A stretch of DNA of 20,549 nucleotides, taken from IMG/VR virus record IMGVR_UViG_3300005915_001969, positions 1 to 20,549 of that record. One strand, 5' to 3'. Each line of letters begins with the position of its first letter. Position 1 is the first letter of the stretch. Of the stretch, positions 2,526-19,242 are shown in pieces. The stretch comes from a virus. A model generated the notes under the pieces. It was not told where the DNA came from. It saw nothing but the letters and a program-made list of their open reading frames with translations, and did no database searches. A program made the translations under genes and the position numbers.

Positions 2526-3200
2526 TTAAACCTCCATTTTTAATTGTTTTACGCCTTGTAAAAATTTATTCAATTCACTATCAATATCGCATTGATTTAT
2601 TTGTTCATCCCGAACAAATGTTTTTATCTTACTAATTATTATAGCAGATTTTTTATTACTTATTCCAATATTTTTTAAGTACCGTTCTAAGTCTCGTATA
2701 TTTTTTGATTCTTCTAACTCTTTGTCGAAGTCTTTATAGTCGCTGATAACTGCCTCCGCATTTGCTGGAATTGTTACAAGACTCACTTCATATAGTTTTA
2801 CTTTTTTAATATAAGTTATATTTGTTTCCCTATCGTATTCATCCATTATTATTGAAAAACCTATGGACATTGTTCTTACAGATCCAACTTCAACTTGTGG
2901 TTTAACACGACCTTTTACAAAATCGTCTCCTAAAGGCATTTTAGCTTCTAAATATAGACCTTTTTCGTTTTCATATATTGTTATAAAAACACCTATAGGC
3001 TCTGACATTTTGTGCTGCCACAAAAAAATTGGAGTTAATTCTTTTAGACTTTCTTCAAAACAACCTTTAACCATTACCTCTTTTTGTCGATCTACATTTC
3101 CAAAAGTTGATCCAAACCCCTTTATTATAAAATATTTATTATCATTTTCAGTAACTTGTTTTGTATCTACAATATCAAATGATACAACTTTATGTTTCAT
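2526..3200 (-). CDS. Prohead protease (HK97 U35/S78-like serine protease)
   Basis: This 224-residue maturation protease cleaves the delta domain from the capsid protein inside the procapsid. Visible features are the start of the fold (FIIKGFGSTFGNVDRQKEVM), the catalytic His in WQHKMSEPIG (His63), and the Ser in MSIGFS (Ser112). Next comes the KLYEVSLVTIPANAEA strand-turn typical of the family. The roughly 70-residue C-terminal helical, charged tail would face the scaffold. GGAGG sits 7 nt before the ATG at 3200. It directly precedes the capsid gene, the canonical order. Confidence 0.94.
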   Translation of the reverse strand: MKHKVVSFDIVDTKQVTENDNKYFIIKGFGSTFGNVDRQKEVMVKGCFEESLKELTPIFLWQHKMSEPIGVFITIYENEKGLYLEAKMPLGDDFVKGRVKPQVEVGSVRTMSIGFSIIMDEYDRETNITYIKKVKLYEVSLVTIPANAEAVISDYKDFDKELEESKNIRDLERYLKNIGISNKKSAIIISKIKTFVRDEQINQCDIDSELNKFLQGVKQLKMEV

Positions 3201-3218: not shown

Positions 3219-3698
3219 TTAAATATCTATTTCTAAAGTTATTTTAATTTTTTTACCATGTATTCGTCCATGACATGATTTACATAAACCAATTAGATTA
3301 TATAGATTATTGTTTTTTTTATTATTATCTAAATGATGAACATCTTCTATATCGTTTACTTTACAAATAGCACATTTAATTTGTGAACTATTCTCTTCAA
3401 ATAATACTTTGTGTACATATTTTTTATTTTTATTATAAACTAAATAACCACCATAATCACTTATACCTGTTTTAAATGTCTTATTGTTTTCGCCTTTATT
3501 GCTTTCTGTATAACAAAGATGAGAACAATATTTTTGTAAAACATAATATCTTTTAAATTCTTTTCCACATCTTTTGCATTTATTTATACTTTTTTCTTTT
3601 AAATAACTTTTCCAACATTTAGAATTACAAAATTTAAATCTTTTTTCTTTTGCTAGAAAACTTTTTCCACAATATTTACATATTTTTTCATATGCCAT
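3219..3698 (-). CDS. Free-standing HNH endonuclease with zinc-finger repeats
   Basis: This 159-residue protein has two tandem treble-clef-like Cys modules (C7/C10 with C24/C28, and C41/C44 with C58/C62) followed by an HNH nuclease core. The core shows CAIC (109-112), VHHLDNNKKNNN with His121/His122 and Asn residues, and CKSCHGRIH (139-147). Such proteins are mobile (homing-type) endonucleases or packaging-associated nickases. Position inside the head cassette, between head morphogenesis and protease genes, favours a homing-type insertion; packaging HNH genes normally lie beside the terminase. I chose ATG 3698 because GGAGG (3714-3710) precedes it by 11 nt. The longer reading from 3716 would place that site inside the coding sequence and has none of its own. 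Confidence 0.87.
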   Translation of the reverse strand: MAYEKICKYCGKSFLAKEKRFKFCNSKCWKSYLKEKSINKCKRCGKEFKRYYVLQKYCSHLCYTESNKGENNKTFKTGISDYGGYLVYNKNKKYVHKVLFEENSSQIKCAICKVNDIEDVHHLDNNKKNNNLYNLIGLCKSCHGRIHGKKIKITLEIDI

Positions 3699-3720
3699 AA
3701 AAAATAAATCCTCCATAATA

Positions 3721-11610: not shown

Positions 11611-12471
11611 TTACTCCTCTTGTTTAAAGCTTTTAATTGTTCTATGAAACGCCTCGAGTGTTCCTATCGCTGGATCAAAACCTAGTTGTCTTAATGGTTC
11701 AATATCTAAACTTTCTTTTATTGTAGCTTTTTCATCAAATCCTTCTACAAACTCAATATCGCAATATATTAAACTAAGTTCTAAAGCTAAGCCGTGCAGT
11801 GTAGTTTTGTTTTTTGGATTACCTATATTATAAACTTCTCCAGATGTTCCTTTTAATAAAGTTCTAAAAATTCCATCTAATGCATCAGTTATATAAGTAA
11901 AGGTTCTTACTGAGCTTGGGTTTTCAATATTAATTTGTTCATTGTTCAAAATTTGTTTAACTATATAAGCAAATATTCTTTTATCTTTTTCAAGTCTCAT
12001 TGTTGGTCCAAATGTATGATCTAATCTAACTGAATAAGTAGGTATATTATATTGATCTGAATAATACCTTAAAAGCCTTTCTGTTGATCTTTTTGCTTCA
12101 CCATAACAATTAACTGGATTTAAAGCTTCTCCTGAACTTAAAAACATAAATCCTTTTAAATCGTTATTACCTTTTATTTTTTCAATTAATCTGTTTGTTT
12201 CAATTACATTACACTTAAAAACATCTACAGGATTAACAAATAACTCACTACTAGCAGGGCTTGCAGCATGTATAATATAATCTATGTCTTGATATATTAA
12301 TTCTGATTCTTTTGTTATTACTATTGCATTTATATATTCAAGAAATAACTTAATAAATCGCCCTATCATTCCAGTTGAACCAGTTAAATAAAATATTTTA
12401 CCCTTAAATTGGCTATAATCTAAATCAGAATCTAATATATTATGTATATCTTCTTGTATTATTTTATTCAT
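11611..12471 (-). CDS. NAD-dependent epimerase/dehydratase (extended SDR, sugar-nucleotide)
   Basis: This 286-residue extended short-chain dehydrogenase acts on nucleotide-sugars. The NAD-binding motif is TGSTGMIG (30-37). DYIIHAASPAS (64-74) and FLSSGE (110-115) follow, then the catalytic Tyr123-x3-Lys127 (NCYGEAK). The later RLDHTFGP and VRTFTYITDALDGI segments are typical of UDP/dTDP-sugar enzymes. The frame is open from 12537, but the real start is ATG 12471: AAGGAG (12485-12480) lies 8 nt upstream, and the first 22 residues of the long form overlap the preceding gene in another frame and are compositionally odd. The product could be a 4-keto sugar or an epimer feeding the C-methyltransferase or ThDP enzyme. 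Confidence 0.91.
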   Translation of the reverse strand: MNKIIQEDIHNILDSDLDYSQFKGKIFYLTGSTGMIGRFIKLFLEYINAIVITKESELIYQDIDYIIHAASPASSELFVNPVDVFKCNVIETNRLIEKIKGNNDLKGFMFLSSGEALNPVNCYGEAKRSTERLLRYYSDQYNIPTYSVRLDHTFGPTMRLEKDKRIFAYIVKQILNNEQINIENPSSVRTFTYITDALDGIFRTLLKGTSGEVYNIGNPKNKTTLHGLALELSLIYCDIEFVEGFDEKATIKESLDIEPLRQLGFDPAIGTLEAFHRTIKSFKQEE

Positions 12472-12472
12472 A

Positions 12473-12688
12473 TTAATCTCTCCTTGGTGGTCTTGGTCTA
12501 GGTGATGAAATTGGTTTTGGTGGTCTTTTGTGTTCAACTCTTAATTCACAAGGTGTATAACCAGAAAAAGGATCATTACAAAAATTCTTTAAATCTATTA
12601 ATTTAAAAAACCAATTTCTTTTTAATAATTCTTGTGGATGATTACAAAATTCATTTTTAAAATAAATACAATTAACTTTAACTTTCAT
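12473..12688 (-). CDS. Small Cys-rich protein with Pro/Arg tail
   Basis: This 71-residue protein has no recognised family. The first 47 residues carry four Cys (C7, C15, C37, C47) and aromatic residues, suggesting a small metal-binding or disulfide domain. Residues 54-71 are a basic, proline-rich tail (KRPPKPISSPRPRPPRRD). The gene overlaps the upstream methyltransferase end by 11 nt; AAGG lies 12 nt or more from the ATG at 12688, so initiation is probably coupled. The last codons, AGG AGA for Arg-Arg, also form the ribosome binding site of the epimerase. This supports a conserved compact arrangement. Confidence 0.62.
   Translation of the reverse strand: MKVKVNCIYFKNEFCNHPQELLKRNWFFKLIDLKNFCNDPFSGYTPCELRVEHKRPPKPISSPRPRPPRRD
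12484..12527. repeat. 11-bp direct repeat inside the Pro/Arg tail codons
   Basis: TTGGTGGTCTT occurs on the plus strand at 12484-12494 and again at 12517-12527. It encodes the similar basic-proline steps of the small protein's tail on the minus strand. It probably reflects slippage or duplication in a low-complexity coding tail; the upstream copy also overlaps the epimerase ribosome binding site. Confidence 0.4.
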
Positions 12689-13805
12689 AAATTTTTATAA
12701 CCTTGTTATATAATCCAATATGATTAATATAATCCTCTATTTCTTTTTGATATGAGTAACTAGAAATTAGAATTGGTATAAATGGATATTTTCTTAATAA
12801 ACTTATTTCTAGTATCGCTTTATCGTTAAATTGCTTATTTACATAATTTTTGTTTGAATCTACATAACACCATATTTTTGAATTATCATAATATTTACTT
12901 AACATTTGCGTATGAGTTCCCACACCCCATACAATTAATTTATCGTTTTCTTTAAATATCTTTTCTATATTCTTTATTAATTTTTTTTCTTTTGTCTTAC
13001 TTTTGTTTATATAAGTTTTTAATGTTGTTTCTGTAGCTGTATCTCTTAAACACATAAACTCATTATTTACAGAAAGTGAAAACAAACAAGGATCTACTGA
13101 TTGATTAACTGTATTTAACTCATTTGATTGACATAGCTTTTCTAGTTTATGCTTTTTAATTAAATTATTTAGTGACCAGTGACTAAAATAATTTATGTGT
13201 TCAATACTAAATTGTTGAAAAGGTGTAAATAGGTTGTCTTTAAATCTTGTACATAAAGGAACTTCAATAAATAATAAACCTCTTGGATTTAAATAACTTA
13301 CTATTTTTTCCATAGATTTATCCAGATCAACTAAGTGTTCTAAAACAGATGAAAGTATTATTAAATCAAACTTAGTTCTAAGTTTCAAACTGTCTATTGT
13401 TGAACATATGGCATTTATTCCTTTTGATTTAACTTTTTCAACTGCTTTTTTAGATGGATCTATACCTACAATATTATTAAAACCATTTTCTTTAAAAAGT
13501 GTTAAAAGTCCGCCTGTTGAACATCCTATATCTAATATTCTTGAGTCTTTATTTTTAAGTCTTATATAATCAAATATCTTTTGATTATGTTCTTGATTTG
13601 TATAATCAACATCATACTTTGACATGTTTTTATAATACTTGTTAAACTTTCTCTGACTTGGTAGATTATCAGCATAACCAAAACCGCAATCACTGCAAAC
13701 TACAACATCATAACTTTTGATTATTGATATTTTGTTTTCTACAAAGTTTTGAGAATACATTATTTTCTTGTACTTGCTTCCACAAATTTGACACTTTCTA
13801 GTCAT
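12678..13805 (-). CDS. Three-domain SAM methyltransferase, sugar C-methyltransferase-like
   Basis: This 375-residue protein has three parts. An N-terminal zinc-binding module has Cys5/Cys8 and Cys37/Cys40. A class I methyltransferase core has LDIGCSTGG (91-99), GIDPS (114-118) and an ILSSVLEHLVD strand. The C-terminal Rossmann-like domain contains KLIVWGVGTHTQML and CYVDSNKNYVNKQF. This order matches NDP-sugar C-3-methyltransferases (Methyltransf_13, _11/23 and _14; for example TylC3 and NovU), which methylate 4-keto-deoxysugars. It starts at ATG 13805 in an ATGA overlap with the upstream radical SAM gene, with AAAGGTG just upstream. The epimerase downstream may supply its keto-sugar. Exact substrate unknown; a general SAM methyltransferase with this layout is the alternative. 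Confidence 0.86.
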   Translation of the reverse strand: MTRKCQICGSKYKKIMYSQNFVENKISIIKSYDVVVCSDCGFGYADNLPSQRKFNKYYKNMSKYDVDYTNQEHNQKIFDYIRLKNKDSRILDIGCSTGGLLTLFKENGFNNIVGIDPSKKAVEKVKSKGINAICSTIDSLKLRTKFDLIILSSVLEHLVDLDKSMEKIVSYLNPRGLLFIEVPLCTRFKDNLFTPFQQFSIEHINYFSHWSLNNLIKKHKLEKLCQSNELNTVNQSVDPCLFSLSVNNEFMCLRDTATETTLKTYINKSKTKEKKLIKNIEKIFKENDKLIVWGVGTHTQMLSKYYDNSKIWCYVDSNKNYVNKQFNDKAILEISLLRKYPFIPILISSYSYQKEIEDYINHIGLYNKVIKIYES

Positions 13806-14794
13806 AAATACACCTTTTCCATAATATTTTTACATAAATTATCTTCGTCGTGCATTCTGTATTTAATAATATTGCATTCTTTACATGTTTTATTTTTATT
13901 TGAGTTAATTAATTTTTTTCTAAAGTTGTTTAATTTTTTACCATTCCATACATCATAAAATGATTCGCTTTTCAGATTACCAATTATTTCTGGATATTCA
14001 AAAGAATAACAAGGAACAACAGCCATGTCTGGATTTATCTGTAAATGAAAAAATGGTTGTGGACAAATATTCACTTCCTTTAATTCGTGTCCAAATTGAG
14101 TTGTATCACGTTCTTTTAATTCCACACCTTGATGTATAGGTACAGTAGTTTCAATTGCTATATAGTCGCAAATATCACCAAATAATGTGTAGAAATTCTT
14201 TTTATCTATCTGGTCTGGTAGAACTGAATCAACTGCCTTAATATAAATGTCACATTGTTTTTTAGCTCTGTATAAAAATCTTAAATTATTTATGAACCAT
14301 TCAAAATCTATTCTATTCAAACTTAAACCACAATTTTTATTGTATTGTTGTGTTGTTAAGCCTTGAATTGAAATAACTATTCTATCTAAACCACTGCCAA
14401 TTAATTCTAATGTTTTAAATCTTGATAATAAATAACCATTAGTTATTAGCTCGATCTTTTCACAAACATTGCTTTTTTTTGTGTAAGCAATCATTTTATG
14501 TAATTCATTATGGAGTAACGGTTCTCCAATACCAACAAATCTAATTACTTTAATCTTGTTCTTAAACTTTTTCATATCGTTTATTGATTTAACAAAGTCT
14601 TTAAATTCCATTTTAACTTGATTAGATATAAAATGACGATCAATAACAGGTATTTGGAAAACGCAATAATTACATTTAAAATTACAACTATAAATAGGAA
14701 AAATTTGAACAACAAGCGGAGCTTCCAAAGGTAATAAATCAATTAGTTTTTGTCTTTTAGTTGGTTGTTTACCTGTTAAGTTAATAGCTATCAT
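13802..14794 (-). CDS. Radical SAM enzyme with SPASM-like C-terminus (second of pair)
   Basis: This 330-residue enzyme carries the iron-sulfur motif CNFKCNYC (Cys37, Cys41, Cys44), FVGIGEP (87-92) and the strand LITNGYLLS. The C-terminal SPASM-type Cys set includes Cys244 (ICPQPF), Cys262 (VVPCYS) and Cys304/Cys307 (TCKEC), following NLKSESFYDVWNGKKLNNFRKK, a typical SPASM lead-in. It would use a SAM-derived radical to modify a sugar, peptide or other metabolite. It overlaps both neighbours by ATGA. In a carbohydrate operon a sugar-nucleotide or glycan substrate is likelier than a peptide, but no precursor peptide gene was sought by search. The relation to the adjacent paralogue is unclear. 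Confidence 0.91.
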   Translation of the reverse strand: MIAINLTGKQPTKRQKLIDLLPLEAPLVVQIFPIYSCNFKCNYCVFQIPVIDRHFISNQVKMEFKDFVKSINDMKKFKNKIKVIRFVGIGEPLLHNELHKMIAYTKKSNVCEKIELITNGYLLSRFKTLELIGSGLDRIVISIQGLTTQQYNKNCGLSLNRIDFEWFINNLRFLYRAKKQCDIYIKAVDSVLPDQIDKKNFYTLFGDICDYIAIETTVPIHQGVELKERDTTQFGHELKEVNICPQPFFHLQINPDMAVVPCYSFEYPEIIGNLKSESFYDVWNGKKLNNFRKKLINSNKNKTCKECNIIKYRMHDEDNLCKNIMEKVYL

Positions 14795-15825
14795 TCAAAA
14801 TCACCTTTTTCAAAAACATCTTTATAGTTCATTGGTAACTCGTTTTTATAAATCTTATTAACTAAGTATTTATTAATAAACTTTCTATCCTCAGCAAGAA
14901 AACAAGTATGACCTTTAAACGGTTTACATTTCATTATTCTTTCAAGTATTGGTTTTAATGGTTCTTTAAAAAGATTACCCATTGAACAATGAAAATATGG
15001 ACAAATTAAAACGTCGCCTTGTTGTGTTATAGAAAATATATTACTACCAGCTGGACAACCTAAATCTAAATCATAAGCACTTGTAAGATGAGTAAAAACT
15101 TTATGTTCTTTTTCAAGTGATTTCATAAATAAAAGATCTTGTTTATCCATTAAACCGTCAAATTGATTTGTAAAAGCTCCAACAGGTTTCGCAAATGAAA
15201 CAAAAACACTCACACCTTTTTTATTAAAAAACTTCAAATAATTTATAAATTCTTCTGAATAAAGTCTTTGTTTTGTAACTACTGTTTGCATAAACATTTC
15301 TATATCGTTATTTAATACATGGTCGACCGCTGCCATTGTTCTTTTAAATGAGCCTACAGCGTCTCTAAAATCATCGTGGTCATGTTCATTTAAACTATCT
15401 AAACTTAGCTGTATTCTGTCAATACCAATATCTTTTATATGTTTAGCTTTTTCGTCGTCTAAATACCAACCATTTGAGTCAATATTAATGTAAAATTTAT
15501 CTGGATTAATTGCTTTAACTAAATCATCTAAATCATGGAATATTAATGGCTCTCCACCTGATATAGTTGTTCTTGCTAGTCCTAAGTTATCAGCTTGACT
15601 ATAAATATTTTTTACATCTTCTATTGATAAACTCTTGTCTTTTTTATATCTAAAGTCTTTTATTGAACAATGTTTGCAATGAAAATTACAAATATACTTA
15701 TATTGAAGTTGTATAATTCCAATACTTTCGTTTCGTTCTATCTTTTCTTTAAACTTAATAACCTTTTCATAAACTTTAGGCTTGTTTAATTTTAATTTGT
15801 TTCTTCTGTCGTCTTGATTGCTCAT
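14791..15825 (-). CDS. Radical SAM enzyme with SPASM-like C-terminus (first of pair)
   Basis: This 344-residue enzyme has CNFHCKHC (Cys46, Cys50, Cys53) for the radical SAM cluster, TISGGEPLI (87-95) and INIDSNGWYL. IDRIQLSLDS follows near 135-144. The C-terminal region has Cys257, Cys275, Cys280, Cys300 and Cys308, consistent with auxiliary cluster binding. The start ATG 15825 overlaps the ThDP C-domain gene (ATGA) and has AAAGGAG 8 nt upstream. It shares the fold but little obvious sequence with the next enzyme, so the two probably catalyse different steps. Substrate cannot be read; epimerisation, dehydration or C-C chemistry on a sugar is plausible by context only. Confidence 0.91.
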   Translation of the reverse strand: MSNQDDRRNKLKLNKPKVYEKVIKFKEKIERNESIGIIQLQYKYICNFHCKHCSIKDFRYKKDKSLSIEDVKNIYSQADNLGLARTTISGGEPLIFHDLDDLVKAINPDKFYINIDSNGWYLDDEKAKHIKDIGIDRIQLSLDSLNEHDHDDFRDAVGSFKRTMAAVDHVLNNDIEMFMQTVVTKQRLYSEEFINYLKFFNKKGVSVFVSFAKPVGAFTNQFDGLMDKQDLLFMKSLEKEHKVFTHLTSAYDLDLGCPAGSNIFSITQQGDVLICPYFHCSMGNLFKEPLKPILERIMKCKPFKGHTCFLAEDRKFINKYLVNKIYKNELPMNYKDVFEKGDFE

Positions 15826-16361
15826 ATACTTGACTCCTTTTTTTGATCTGGATTTATAATAACTTCTATTAATGATGGTCGAGTTAAATCATGGTTAAAT
15901 ATCTTTTCTAGTTTTGTTAAATCATTACATAATTCATAATCCATAAAATACGTTATAGATAAGTCTAACAAAGGCGGGAATGTTAATTGTTCAACTAGAT
16001 CATTGTTAAAAAACTTTTGATGTGTGTTTCTTATTGAAGCATAACCATTGTTATTCAAAACAAATATTAATATATTTAAATTTAATCTGGTAATAGTTTG
16101 TAGCTCTTGAATATTATGCTGCAAACTTCCATCACCTTCAATACATATAACTGGTCTATTACTAGCTATTGATGCGCCTATTGCATGAGGTATAGCAAAC
16201 CCCATAGAACCAAGCCCAGGATTACATATAATTCTTTGCCCTTTTTTAACTTTCCATGCTTGTTGTGTTATCTCAGATGCAAAACCTGAACTAGATGGAA
16301 CTATTACATGATCTTTAGTTGCAAGATCAGATACCTTGTTTATAAAATCGTATAAGTTCAT
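15822..16361 (-). CDS. ThDP-dependent enzyme, C-terminal (PP, cofactor-binding) domain as a separate gene
   Basis: This 179-residue protein corresponds to the pyrophosphate-binding third of acetolactate-synthase-like enzymes. It has VPSSSGFASE (21-30), GLGSMGFAIPHAIGAS (49-64), the ThDP/Mg motif GDG (76-78) ending at NNN (103-105), and GYASIRNTHQKFF (106-118). The GLxSMG and NNGYASIRxTQ-like patterns are those of ThDP enzymes of polysaccharide/nonulosonate gene clusters, which may transfer a two-carbon unit from pyruvate. Normally this domain is the end of one chain of about 550 residues. It starts at ATG 16361, overlapping the middle-domain gene by ATGA, with GGGAG 8 nt upstream. It must assemble with the products of the two preceding genes to be active. 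Confidence 0.92.
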   Translation of the reverse strand: MNLYDFINKVSDLATKDHVIVPSSSGFASEITQQAWKVKKGQRIICNPGLGSMGFAIPHAIGASIASNRPVICIEGDGSLQHNIQELQTITRLNLNILIFVLNNNGYASIRNTHQKFFNNDLVEQLTFPPLLDLSITYFMDYELCNDLTKLEKIFNHDLTRPSLIEVIINPDQKKESSI

Positions 16362-16867
16362 TTACAAAGCTCCCTTGCTTTTTCAATTAATCCTAAATGT
16401 TCATTATCTTGATCTTGAGTTGCACATAAATAATAATATTCATTAAAAGAAGTTAAAAATTCTTTTATATCTCTACAAATTTTTAATTCACCAAAAGAAA
16501 GTTTATCAAGTTCATTTTGATCTATATCTATTATTATTTTTTTTGCATTAGATGTATATTGTTCTGGATGCCAAGATGTTTGCATTAAGTCCATTCTTGC
16601 ACCAATACATATAATTAAATCTGCTTTATCTTCAATTAATTTTGCATTTTTATTATTTAATAATCCTGGTCTACCAAAATATAAATGATGATTTTCTGAT
16701 ATTAAATCTATACCTCTCCATGTTGTTAATACTGGAATATGTAATAAATTTATTAGTCTTTCAAATTCATTAATAGCATTAGATGCTCTTACTCCATGAC
16801 CAGCTAATATTATAGGAAATTTACTAGAGTATAAATAATGAAACATTAATTGATTTACATCACCCAT
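16358..16867 (-). CDS. ThDP-dependent enzyme, central domain as a separate gene
   Basis: This 169-residue protein matches the central Rossmann-like domain of acetolactate-synthase-like enzymes. SKFPIILAGHGVRASNAINEFERL (15-38) and IPVLTTWRGIDLI are seen, then HHLYFGRPG (60-68), KADLIICIGARMD (81-93) and KKIIIDIDQNEL. In full-length enzymes it binds FAD or is structural, between the two catalytic domains. It starts at ATG 16867, overlapping the N-domain gene by 8 nt (ATGGGTGA) in a +1-shifted frame. It has no clear ribosome binding site, so translation is probably by termination-reinitiation. Ends match the inter-domain linkers, so nothing essential seems missing. Confidence 0.88.
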   Translation of the reverse strand: MGDVNQLMFHYLYSSKFPIILAGHGVRASNAINEFERLINLLHIPVLTTWRGIDLISENHHLYFGRPGLLNNKNAKLIEDKADLIICIGARMDLMQTSWHPEQYTSNAKKIIIDIDQNELDKLSFGELKICRDIKEFLTSFNEYYYLCATQDQDNEHLGLIEKARELCK

Positions 16868-17387
16868 TTACTAATTCTTTTTGTATATCTATTGGAATTT
16901 CTAGCCAAACAGGAGCTTTACGACCTGTTGTTGCTTTCTCTATAAGTATTGGCAAAAGTTTGTCTATAGTTGGATATTTTCTTAACATAACACCTGATTT
17001 TGTTATTTCTTCAATAATTGATCTAGTATCAATTTCACCAACACCTTTTGATCTAATATCTTTATGTTCTTTTATATCTTGAGTTTTACATTGACCTGAA
17101 ATTATAAGCAAAGGAGTTGAATCAATATAACTTGCTGCAACTCCTGTAAGACAATTTAAAGCGCCAGCGCCATTTGTTACTATTACAACACCTAATTCAT
17201 TTTTATACTGTGCGTAAGCATCTGCAGCTATAACAGCCGATTGTTCGTGTAACATGTGTATGAATTTTATATTTTTATTCTTGTTTACAGCGTCGATTAA
17301 ATACATACACATACCGCCAGAAACACCAAATATATGAGTGACGCCTATTTCTGATAAATAATTAACTATAAATTCAGCTACAGTCAT
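16860..17387 (-). CDS. ThDP-dependent enzyme, N-terminal (Pyr) domain as a separate gene
   Basis: This 175-residue protein is the pyrimidine-binding first third of an acetolactate-synthase-like enzyme. It has the opening MTVAEFIVNYLSEIGVTHIFGVSGG and the catalytic Glu48 in HEQSAVIAADAYAQ (47-60), which activates ThDP. TNGAGALNCLTGVAASYIDS (71-90) is the classic family segment, and it ends with GRKAPVWLEIPIDIQ. It stops exactly at the normal domain boundary. ATGA overlap with the preceding unknown gene and GAGG 7 nt upstream support the start at 17387. Together with the next two genes it makes the equivalent of one 523-residue enzyme, probably acting on a sugar or keto-acid in this operon. Confidence 0.92.
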   Translation of the reverse strand: MTVAEFIVNYLSEIGVTHIFGVSGGMCMYLIDAVNKNKNIKFIHMLHEQSAVIAADAYAQYKNELGVVIVTNGAGALNCLTGVAASYIDSTPLLIISGQCKTQDIKEHKDIRSKGVGEIDTRSIIEEITKSGVMLRKYPTIDKLLPILIEKATTGRKAPVWLEIPIDIQKELVNG

Positions 17388-17740
17388 TCAAAATCCTCAT
17401 ATTGACCATATATTAAACCTTTTGCTCTAGTCACTATTGAATCTTTTATTTTATATAAATATTTTTTTATCTTATTTTTTATATCACTTAATACTATTTC
17501 ATTTTTATTGATTATTCTTTCGTTGTCTTTAACATGTTCTAAGTTAATATAATATTCATCTTCTTTAATAAAACTAAATCCTTGAAGAATTTTATTTATT
17601 TTATTCCCCTTTTTTCCTATTAAAGTTAAACTTATTCTTTCTTGATAACATGCACCTGTACAAGATAGCGTTTCAGTTAAATTTAAATTTAATTCAACAT
17701 TATCTTCAAAATCTACATATTTTCCATTATAAAATATCAT
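17384..17740 (-). CDS. Hypothetical protein in the sugar operon
   Basis: This 118-residue protein is not recognised. It opens with MIFYNGKYVDFEDNVELNLN and has a Cys pair in LSCTGACYQERISLTLIG (about 26-43). A Lys/Ile-rich helical half follows, ending IYGQYEDFE. Gene spacing shows it is real: its ATG at 17740 overlaps the NeuB-fusion stop by ATGA, and its own stop overlaps the ThDP N-domain start by ATGA. It may be an accessory or carrier-type protein for the sugar pathway, but there is no motif proof. Confidence 0.65.
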   Translation of the reverse strand: MIFYNGKYVDFEDNVELNLNLTETLSCTGACYQERISLTLIGKKGNKINKILQGFSFIKEDEYYINLEHVKDNERIINKNEIVLSDIKNKIKKYLYKIKDSIVTRAKGLIYGQYEDFE

Positions 17741-19242
17741 GTTATTTCACCATCTAACCAAGATCTTTTAAATGTCATTTTTGTTTTTCTGTTTGGGTTG
17801 TTTATTATCCTTTCATCATCATAATAAGAATCACCTTCAATACTTGTTGTTGATATTTCTTCAAATACACATCCATTACAAGCAGTAAAGAAATGTACTT
17901 TCTTTCTTTCTACAATGACTAAATTATCATCTGTTGGATTTGTTGTTCTAATTTCTCCATTTATATTTGTAGTTAAATCACCATATAAAACATGAAACGT
18001 CTCATCTTTTTGAATATGATAATGATCAGGATGTATTTGATTAGGTAATATAACTATTATTTTCTTTGCATATTCTCTATTTAAAATATTAAATATTGCA
18101 GCTCCGTATTCTTTATATCTGCTAATTCCGTAATGATGTGATAATTCCATGTCGCAATTATCAGGTATAGCAACTTTACTATTTTTTATTATTGGTACAA
18201 TTTGTTTAATTATATCTAAAACATCTTGTCTTTTATTATTACAATCAATCATATTTTTAGTTACTTGTAAGTTTTTACCAATTTCATATTTAACTTTATA
18301 TTCTTTATACTTCGATAAATCACTTGTAGTTAAATGCTGAGTTCCTTGAACTGGCATGGCAAGAAACGTATTTTCTTTTGTTAATATATCACCAGCTTTT
18401 AAATCTTCTTTTGCATAAACACCACGTTGCAAGTTTCTTATTGTTTGTTTTTGAGTTTCTGGGATTTCGTATCTTCTAGTTTCGTATCCACTTAATAATA
18501 TAGAATTTTTATAGTTTTCAAGTAATACTTTAAGTTCAATTGGACTTATTGAGTATTTATTACCATCATTTAATTTTATATGAACCTCTAAAATGTTTGC
18601 TCTTATATCAAATGAACCATGTTCTATATGTGATGAATAACCAATTGATATATCTTTATATCTATTTTTTAAAAACTCTATTTGACCTAATTGACCATTT
18701 TCCCACTGTGTAGGATATTCAGGCACACAATGAAGCAAAGCAAATTCTTTTTTACGATGTTTCATGAAACTAACAAAGTTATCTATATCTAATAATTCAG
18801 CTGCTCCTGTACTAGCTATAATATGCTTGTTTGTTACAGCAATCTTTTCTATTAAGGACCAATCAGTAAATGAACAACTTGCAATTTTAATTATGTCATA
18901 ATTATGTTCAATAATTTTATCAACACTATTTTCATCAAAAGGAGTACAAATAGAAATAAATCCACATTCTTTTATATAGTCTTTTATTTCTTTGAATCGT
19001 TCCCATGATAAACGAGTATCGTTAAATCGTTTTATATATTTGAAATCTACATTGTGTTTAAAATAAGGATGTATAAATGTATCTAAATCTCTATATTGAA
19101 GCTTAATTCCAAACTGAAAAGTATCTTTGTATGGTTCGCATTGTTCTTTTGCTATTTTTATTATTTCTTTTGCAAGTTCAACTGACCCGAGATGATTATT
19201 TGCACACTCTAAAACTATTAACCTATTAAAATAATTAATCAT
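17737..19242 (-). CDS. NeuB-type nonulosonate synthase fused to SAF and cupin domains
   Basis: This 501-residue fusion has three domains. Residues 1-255 are the NeuB TIM barrel that condenses phosphoenolpyruvate with a hexose to make sialic-acid-like sugars. It shows ECANNHLGS (12-20), SICTPFD (97-103), IIKIAS (117-122), ASTGAAE (143-149), HCVPEYPT (171-178), IGYSSH (200-205) and EVHIKL (219-224). Residues 272-331 are a SAF antifreeze-like domain (RGVYAKEDLKAGD). Residues 335-501 contain a cupin with IHPDHYH (403-409), Glu414, His417 and a late His450, resembling sugar-isomerase-type cupins. GGAG 6 nt before the ATG at 19242 supports the start. The cupin may isomerise or epimerise the substrate before condensation (inference). 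Confidence 0.92.
   Translation of the reverse strand: MINYFNRLIVLECANNHLGSVELAKEIIKIAKEQCEPYKDTFQFGIKLQYRDLDTFIHPYFKHNVDFKYIKRFNDTRLSWERFKEIKDYIKECGFISICTPFDENSVDKIIEHNYDIIKIASCSFTDWSLIEKIAVTNKHIIASTGAAELLDIDNFVSFMKHRKKEFALLHCVPEYPTQWENGQLGQIEFLKNRYKDISIGYSSHIEHGSFDIRANILEVHIKLNDGNKYSISPIELKVLLENYKNSILLSGYETRRYEIPETQKQTIRNLQRGVYAKEDLKAGDILTKENTFLAMPVQGTQHLTTSDLSKYKEYKVKYEIGKNLQVTKNMIDCNNKRQDVLDIIKQIVPIIKNSKVAIPDNCDMELSHHYGISRYKEYGAAIFNILNREYAKKIIVILPNQIHPDHYHIQKDETFHVLYGDLTTNINGEIRTTNPTDDNLVIVERKKVHFFTACNGCVFEEISTTSIEGDSYYDDERIINNPNRKTKMTFKRSWLDGEIT

Follow-up and report, generated by a model that had tools for sequence, protein, structure and literature searches.

A probable YerE/JanthE-like ThDP carboligase encoded as three one-domain subunits in a phage sugar cassette

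In a virus record from IMG/VR, a ThDP enzyme is encoded by three intact and overlapping ORFs on the minus strand, each carrying a single domain in the order PYR, TH3 (middle domain) and PP. We consider it likely that this trio represents a YerE/JanthE-like carboligase of a sugar cassette that is split into three translationally coupled subunits, and we infer that the three chains most likely assemble into one active carboligase. With somewhat less confidence, we favor the broader view that phages have repeatedly dismantled this three-domain carboligase at its linkers, giving rise to nearly every architecture including the first separate TH3 subunits, with homing endonucleases making the cuts and the subunits reassembling into working hetero-oligomers. 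The window, i.e., the whole record of 20.5 kb, features terminase, portal, prohead protease and capsid genes along with the sugar-modification cassette, all located on the minus strand.

Results

Pfam assigned the PYR, middle and PP domains singly to the three ORFs (Table 1), in line with the original prediction, which had described one ThDP enzyme laid out as three one-domain genes. Using the NCBIfam ALS models, the ORFs align to approximately residues 1–173, 192–345 and 357–542 of the full-length enzyme. The key residues and the gene borders also proved to be as predicted, including frames, coordinates, the 8-nt overlap and the ATGA overlap with its GGGAG site: the catalytic Glu of the PYR ORF is E48 within LHEQ, and the PP ORF harbors the metal/ThDP motif GDG (residues 76–78) followed by N103 N104 N105 G106, which satisfies the GD-X(25–30)-N pattern. 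The window contains all features of the ThDP decarboxylase-type superfamily, namely a PYR domain with catalytic Glu, the PP motif, TH3 and the domain order, apart from the single polypeptide, which is usual but not strictly defining and is replaced here by three ORFs.

Table 1. Coordinates of the ThDP-enzyme trio, its junctions and the surrounding cassette genes in the window.
Feature	Position	Strand	Length	Remarks
NAD-dependent epimerase/dehydratase	11611..12537	-		PF01370 4.1e-23
Methyltransferase (putative C-methyltransferase type)	12678..13805	-		PF13489 5.6e-24; relatives in the same cassettes
Radical SAM/SPASM enzyme 2	13802..14794	-		PF13186 5.2e-14, PF04055 2e-12
Radical SAM/SPASM enzyme 1	14791..15825	-		PF04055 4.8e-23; ATGA-coupled to PP gene
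PP-domain subunit (putative)	15822..16361	-	179 aa	PF02775 (TPP_enzyme_C) 2.7e-27, sole Pfam domain in ORF
Overlap of middle-gene stop and PP start	16358..16361	-	4 nt	ATGA; GGGAG 8 nt upstream
Stand-alone middle (TH3) subunit (putative)	16358..16867	-	169 aa	PF00205 (TPP_enzyme_M) 2.5e-32, sole Pfam domain in ORF
Overlap of PYR stop and middle-gene start	16860..16867	-	8 nt	ATGGGTGA
PYR-domain subunit (putative)	16860..17387	-	175 aa	PF02776 (TPP_enzyme_N) 1.2e-36, sole Pfam domain in ORF
Gene between NeuB and PYR	17384..17740	-	118 aa	No Pfam, NCBIfam or PHROG match; ATGA-coupled
NeuB-like sugar-acid synthase fused to cupin	17737..19242	-		PF03102 4.5e-37

The nearest solved structure to a bacterial fused homologue is JanthE (5.5e-124), followed by an AHAS (9.8e-76). 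JanthE is a YerE-like enzyme coupling 2-keto acids to ketones, and the product of YerE itself is yersiniose A, a branched sugar (PMC12188165, PMC12247030). Among PDB sequences, JanthE (8rph) was the best match for TH3 (1.1e-12) and PP (1.1e-21) of the window; PYR matched the AHAS 5ahk (1.7e-28) better than JanthE (6e-22). AlphaFold models of the TH3 chain alone (pLDDT 82.6, pTM 0.80) and of the PP chain alone (pLDDT 83.5), both computed from alignments including pieces of fused relatives, were compared by Foldseek; the TH3 model matched the middle domain of AHAS and JanthE, and the best match of the PP model was JanthE. The model for biosynthetic acetolactate synthase (TIGR00118) scored 76.3, 68.1 and 120.4 bits at a cut-off of 538, a shortfall that partly reflects length. 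The initial description as acetolactate-synthase-like does not hold in detail, and we prefer the label YerE/JanthE-like, with JanthE as the nearest solved structure to the bacterial homologue.

The ThDP gene is found together with genes for NeuB-cupin, radical SAM, methyltransferase and epimerase proteins in phages as well as bacteria (Nitrospirota and Omnitrophota MAGs). Relatives of the NeuB-cupin protein encoded beside it in phages and bacteria are 38–48% identical over approximately 490 aa, and radical SAM/SPASM enzyme 1 is 39–56% identical across split and fused cassettes. Judged from this sequence context, the most likely role of the enzyme is that of a carboligase introducing branches into a surface or virion glycan. 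The 118-aa gene upstream of PYR occupies the slot where bacterial cassettes hold a HAD-type (NT5C-like) gene.

Scans of IMG/VR and GTDB genomes yielded 380 loci, and merging of repeats left 137 distinct viral loci, of which 94 are fused, 40 are split and three were excluded as contig end, TGA-recoded or frameshift-like; since later viral scans used split sequences as lead, splits are over-sampled in these counts. The split loci comprise 25 PYR/TH3-PP, seven PYR-TH3/PP, three PYR/TH3/PP, two PYR/PP and two TH3/PP arrangements (slashes marking gene borders) as well as one contig-end cut. When one query (A1) was used throughout, splits made up 13 of 38 viral loci compared to two of 80 bacterial loci, both of the latter being frameshift-like. 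Overall, 75 of 79 bacterial relatives are fused and the remainder are contig ends or frameshift-like. Moreover, none of about 110 TPP_enzyme_M matches in 61 genomes from the phylum to which a close bacterial homologue belongs was a stand-alone frame, the shortest frames (261 and 286 aa) being partial matches in one fragmented genome. Three-way loci besides the window are L114/L116, L138/L306 and L263, so that the search for homologues sharing this split, suggested along with the original prediction, recovered it in two further phage lineages (L114/L306 and L263). In single-ORF searches for close relatives of the window, PYR gave none, and matches to PP and TH3 did not exceed 46% identity. INPHARED contained distant matches only, all below 60% identity and many resembling host contamination.

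Several candidates were rejected as splits, including L275 (frameshift-like break within TH3), the bacterial loci L181 and L210 (frameshift-like) and L157, L165 and L129 (contig ends). A further rejected case is L364 (IMGVR_UViG_3300035698_024406), featuring two in-frame TGA codons (3089–3091 and 3311–3313) at conserved Trp positions (GC*LDSIP and GPV*IDIP); this phage probably reads TGA as Trp, leaving its ThDP gene unsplit.

Among the accepted splits, 43 of 46 breaks fall into the two inter-domain linkers, which account for 12% of the gene. Counting approximately one break per lineage, this enrichment corresponds to a P of the order of 1e-6, where the number of lineages is approximate and detection by domain profile favors clean breaks. 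In nearly all split loci, the PYR ORF ends at profile position 171–175, TH3 starts at 1–14 and PP at 1–3. In L055, L370, L306, L263, L108, L316, L315 and L321, the downstream part lies approximately 190–1460 nt from the upstream stop, and the downstream parts of such physically separated loci carry their own starts. The gap between PYR and TH3-PP in L370 (2034–3497) holds two ORFs without Pfam match, with G-rich GGTAAGGT-like repeats around.

The junctions of the window resemble other gene borders of its operon, where ATGA overlaps occur several times. Overlaps (ATGTATAA) of the same length as that between PYR and the middle gene of the window occur at junctions in L010, L011, L048, L049 and L062, and an ATGA junction like the one between TH3 and PP is also present in L114 and L082. 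Compared to 169 fused homologues, the inter-domain DNA of the window is reduced to 16.3 codons between PYR and TH3 (median 34, 5–95% range 29–44) and to 26.7 codons between TH3 and PP (median 36, range 34–38). As both linkers are shorter than in nearly all fused homologues, the breaks do not represent single-base errors within a linker that is normal in other respects. Assembly or sequencing indels breaking a normal gene are therefore a very improbable explanation, even though the metagenomic record is one contig without reads and one indel could in principle open each junction: in addition to the short linkers, this would require two indels of opposite sign, each placed inside a linker, while no other long gene of the contig is disrupted and many independent assemblies are broken at the same borders, with gaps of up to approximately 1.5 kb. 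Just as improbable is a programmed frameshift fusing the ORFs into one chain after all. The overlap between PYR and TH3 does correspond to a +1 shift with the UGA in a GGG UGA context, but the TH3/PP border would need a −1 shift, where no slippery heptamer was seen by eye, and the RNA structure is ordinary at both junctions (z-scores of −0.13 and −1.24). Furthermore, a GGGAG site precedes PP and the parts lie hundreds of bases apart in relatives.

With regard to sequence conservation, the window retains 29 of 35 (PYR, including E48), 15 of 19 (TH3) and 20 of 25 (PP, including GDG and the Asn residues) columns conserved in fused homologues. These values of 83, 79 and 80% correspond to the 1st–5th percentile of fused homologues, and several conserved TH3 columns are altered. 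The C-terminus is short as well (179 residues versus 222, range 205–229, in fused homologues); a tail of about 40 residues is absent, whose counterpart region in JanthE holds the active-site residue K567 (PMC12188165). This divergence, together with the loss of conserved residues and of the tail, could indicate a decaying pseudogene, i.e., a once-fused and now useless enzyme broken by frameshifts. We regard this as unlikely, because three frames remain open despite AT-rich DNA, the ThDP-site residues are kept, the codon-position GC pattern matches that of neighboring genes, starts and stops overlap cleanly with a ribosome binding site, and the equivalents in other phages are maintained with dN/dS well below 1. 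The original prediction had named uninterrupted homologues next to a decayed copy as evidence against a genuine split; fused homologues indeed exist, but the copy in the window is not visibly decayed.

In an IQ-TREE phylogeny of 79 rows, the fused/split state requires seven changes, with at least five changes for the PYR/TH3 break and at least six for the TH3/PP break, and the three-way state appeared in three places (the window, L263 and L114/L306). A FastTree phylogeny of 215 rows showed a similar scatter of splits. The nearest partner of the window is tree-dependent, namely the split L370 in FastTree and the fused L079 in IQ-TREE, and its own fission is consequently undated. Since split genes lie within groups of fused genes from bacteria and phages, fission is most simply read as the derived rather than the ancestral state; refusion may represent the alternative direction, as the tree root was not inferred. 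The split genes in phages other than the window are under purifying selection, with dN/dS of approximately 0.08–0.26 for split-gene pairs in L010/L011 and L048/L049/L055, 0.13–0.15 for the PYR-TH3 gene of L093/L307 and approximately 0.08–0.12 for the three-way pair L114/L306, for which dS is near saturation. Together with the occurrence of the same kind of split in other phages, sometimes with parts hundreds of bases apart, this selection strengthens the proposal of a true three-subunit phage enzyme.

Five phage loci carry a homing-endonuclease-type gene within a linker: a NUMOD4/HNH_3 gene between PYR and TH3 in L263, an HNH gene between TH3 and PP in L108, a GIY-YIG/NUMOD3 gene between PYR and TH3 in L055, and GIY-YIG-like genes, recognized by motif only, in the gaps of L293 and L313. 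Their position suggests how splits arise. Such a gene is absent from the two junctions of the window itself. Elsewhere in the window, between the prohead protease and head-protein genes, a 165-aa ORF with zinc-ribbon and HNH-like features (3219–3716, minus strand) possibly encodes a free-standing homing endonuclease; its Pfam match (DZR_2) is sub-threshold only.

Discussion

A split would most likely originate from the insertion of a homing endonuclease, or from a similar break plus an internal start, in a linker, and the cut would be tolerated because the linker is dispensable. In the window, the endonuclease would later have been lost, resulting in overlapping genes and shortened linkers. 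The PYR, TH3 and PP chains would then fold independently and form a hetero-oligomer, with the ThDP site located as usual where the PYR domain of one protomer meets the PP domain of a second, and TH3 would bridge PYR and PP. Such a complex would decarboxylate a 2-keto acid and pass the aldehyde unit to a keto-sugar acceptor, which would be provided by the NeuB, epimerase and radical SAM neighbors.

Alternatively, the subunits could indeed be separate while the working enzyme consists of PYR and PP only, with TH3 being dispensable or otherwise used. Consistent with this option, L080 (36.9 kb) and L372 encode PYR and PP as separate genes with TH3 nowhere in the record, and ComDE and RhiEF function without TH3 (PMC12141560). 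However, TH3 is intact and encoded in the same operon in the window and L114, and it is retained in L306 and L263 as well, so that we judge this option doubtful, too. L080 (IMGVR_UViG_3300037087_000031), where PYR and PP overlap by ATGA, represents a natural TH3-less version of a TH3-bearing family, and the pair in L372, featuring a very short PP (159 aa), adjoins NeuB-like and radical SAM genes.

Our favored three-subunit carboligase shares the sugar-cassette context with YerE-like carboligases such as YerE and JanthE (8rph, 8rpi, 8rpj). Known members are, however, single chains of about 600 residues, whereas the window encodes three chains with short linkers and without the C-terminal tail, and it features a canonical GDG instead of the CDG of JanthE. 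PYR and PP located on separate chains around ThDP, as proposed here, are known from ComDE (sulfopyruvate decarboxylase), RhiEF (phosphonopyruvate decarboxylase) and split transketolase, the latter being active as alpha2beta2 with the linker missing (PMC7661550). In contrast to the window, none of these has a separate TH3 subunit, and while ComDE-type splits are regarded as ancestral, the phage splits are embedded in groups of fused genes.

Split phage genes with an HNH or GIY-YIG gene in the break, whose products can function, have been described for nrdA/mobE of Aeromonas phage Aeh1, for gene 60/mobA of the T4 topoisomerase and for gene 43A/43B; in Aeh1, nrdA is split by mobE and the NrdA enzyme is still active (PMC2988022). 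The phage ThDP splits differ from the Aeh1 and T4 cases in that the breaks fall into domain linkers, affect several lineages of one family and mostly lack an endonuclease at the break. The open-access papers searched yielded no report of a free TH3 subunit, be it of a split or a three-part ThDP enzyme. What is new here is therefore the three-part architecture and its recurrent phage origin; the assembly principle was already known.

According to the current view, PYR and PP were originally separate subunits in ThDP enzymes and became fused later, TH3 being added, and the meaning of surviving split genes like comDE and rhiEF has been called enigmatic (PMC12141560). The reverse path is visible in the family described here, in which fused, two-part and three-part forms sit near one another on the tree and endonucleases are found in the gaps. 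The function of a free TH3, the need for linkers in catalysis and an endonuclease-driven modularity of phage enzymes thereby become testable, and the split domains might serve as building blocks for the mixing of carboligases.
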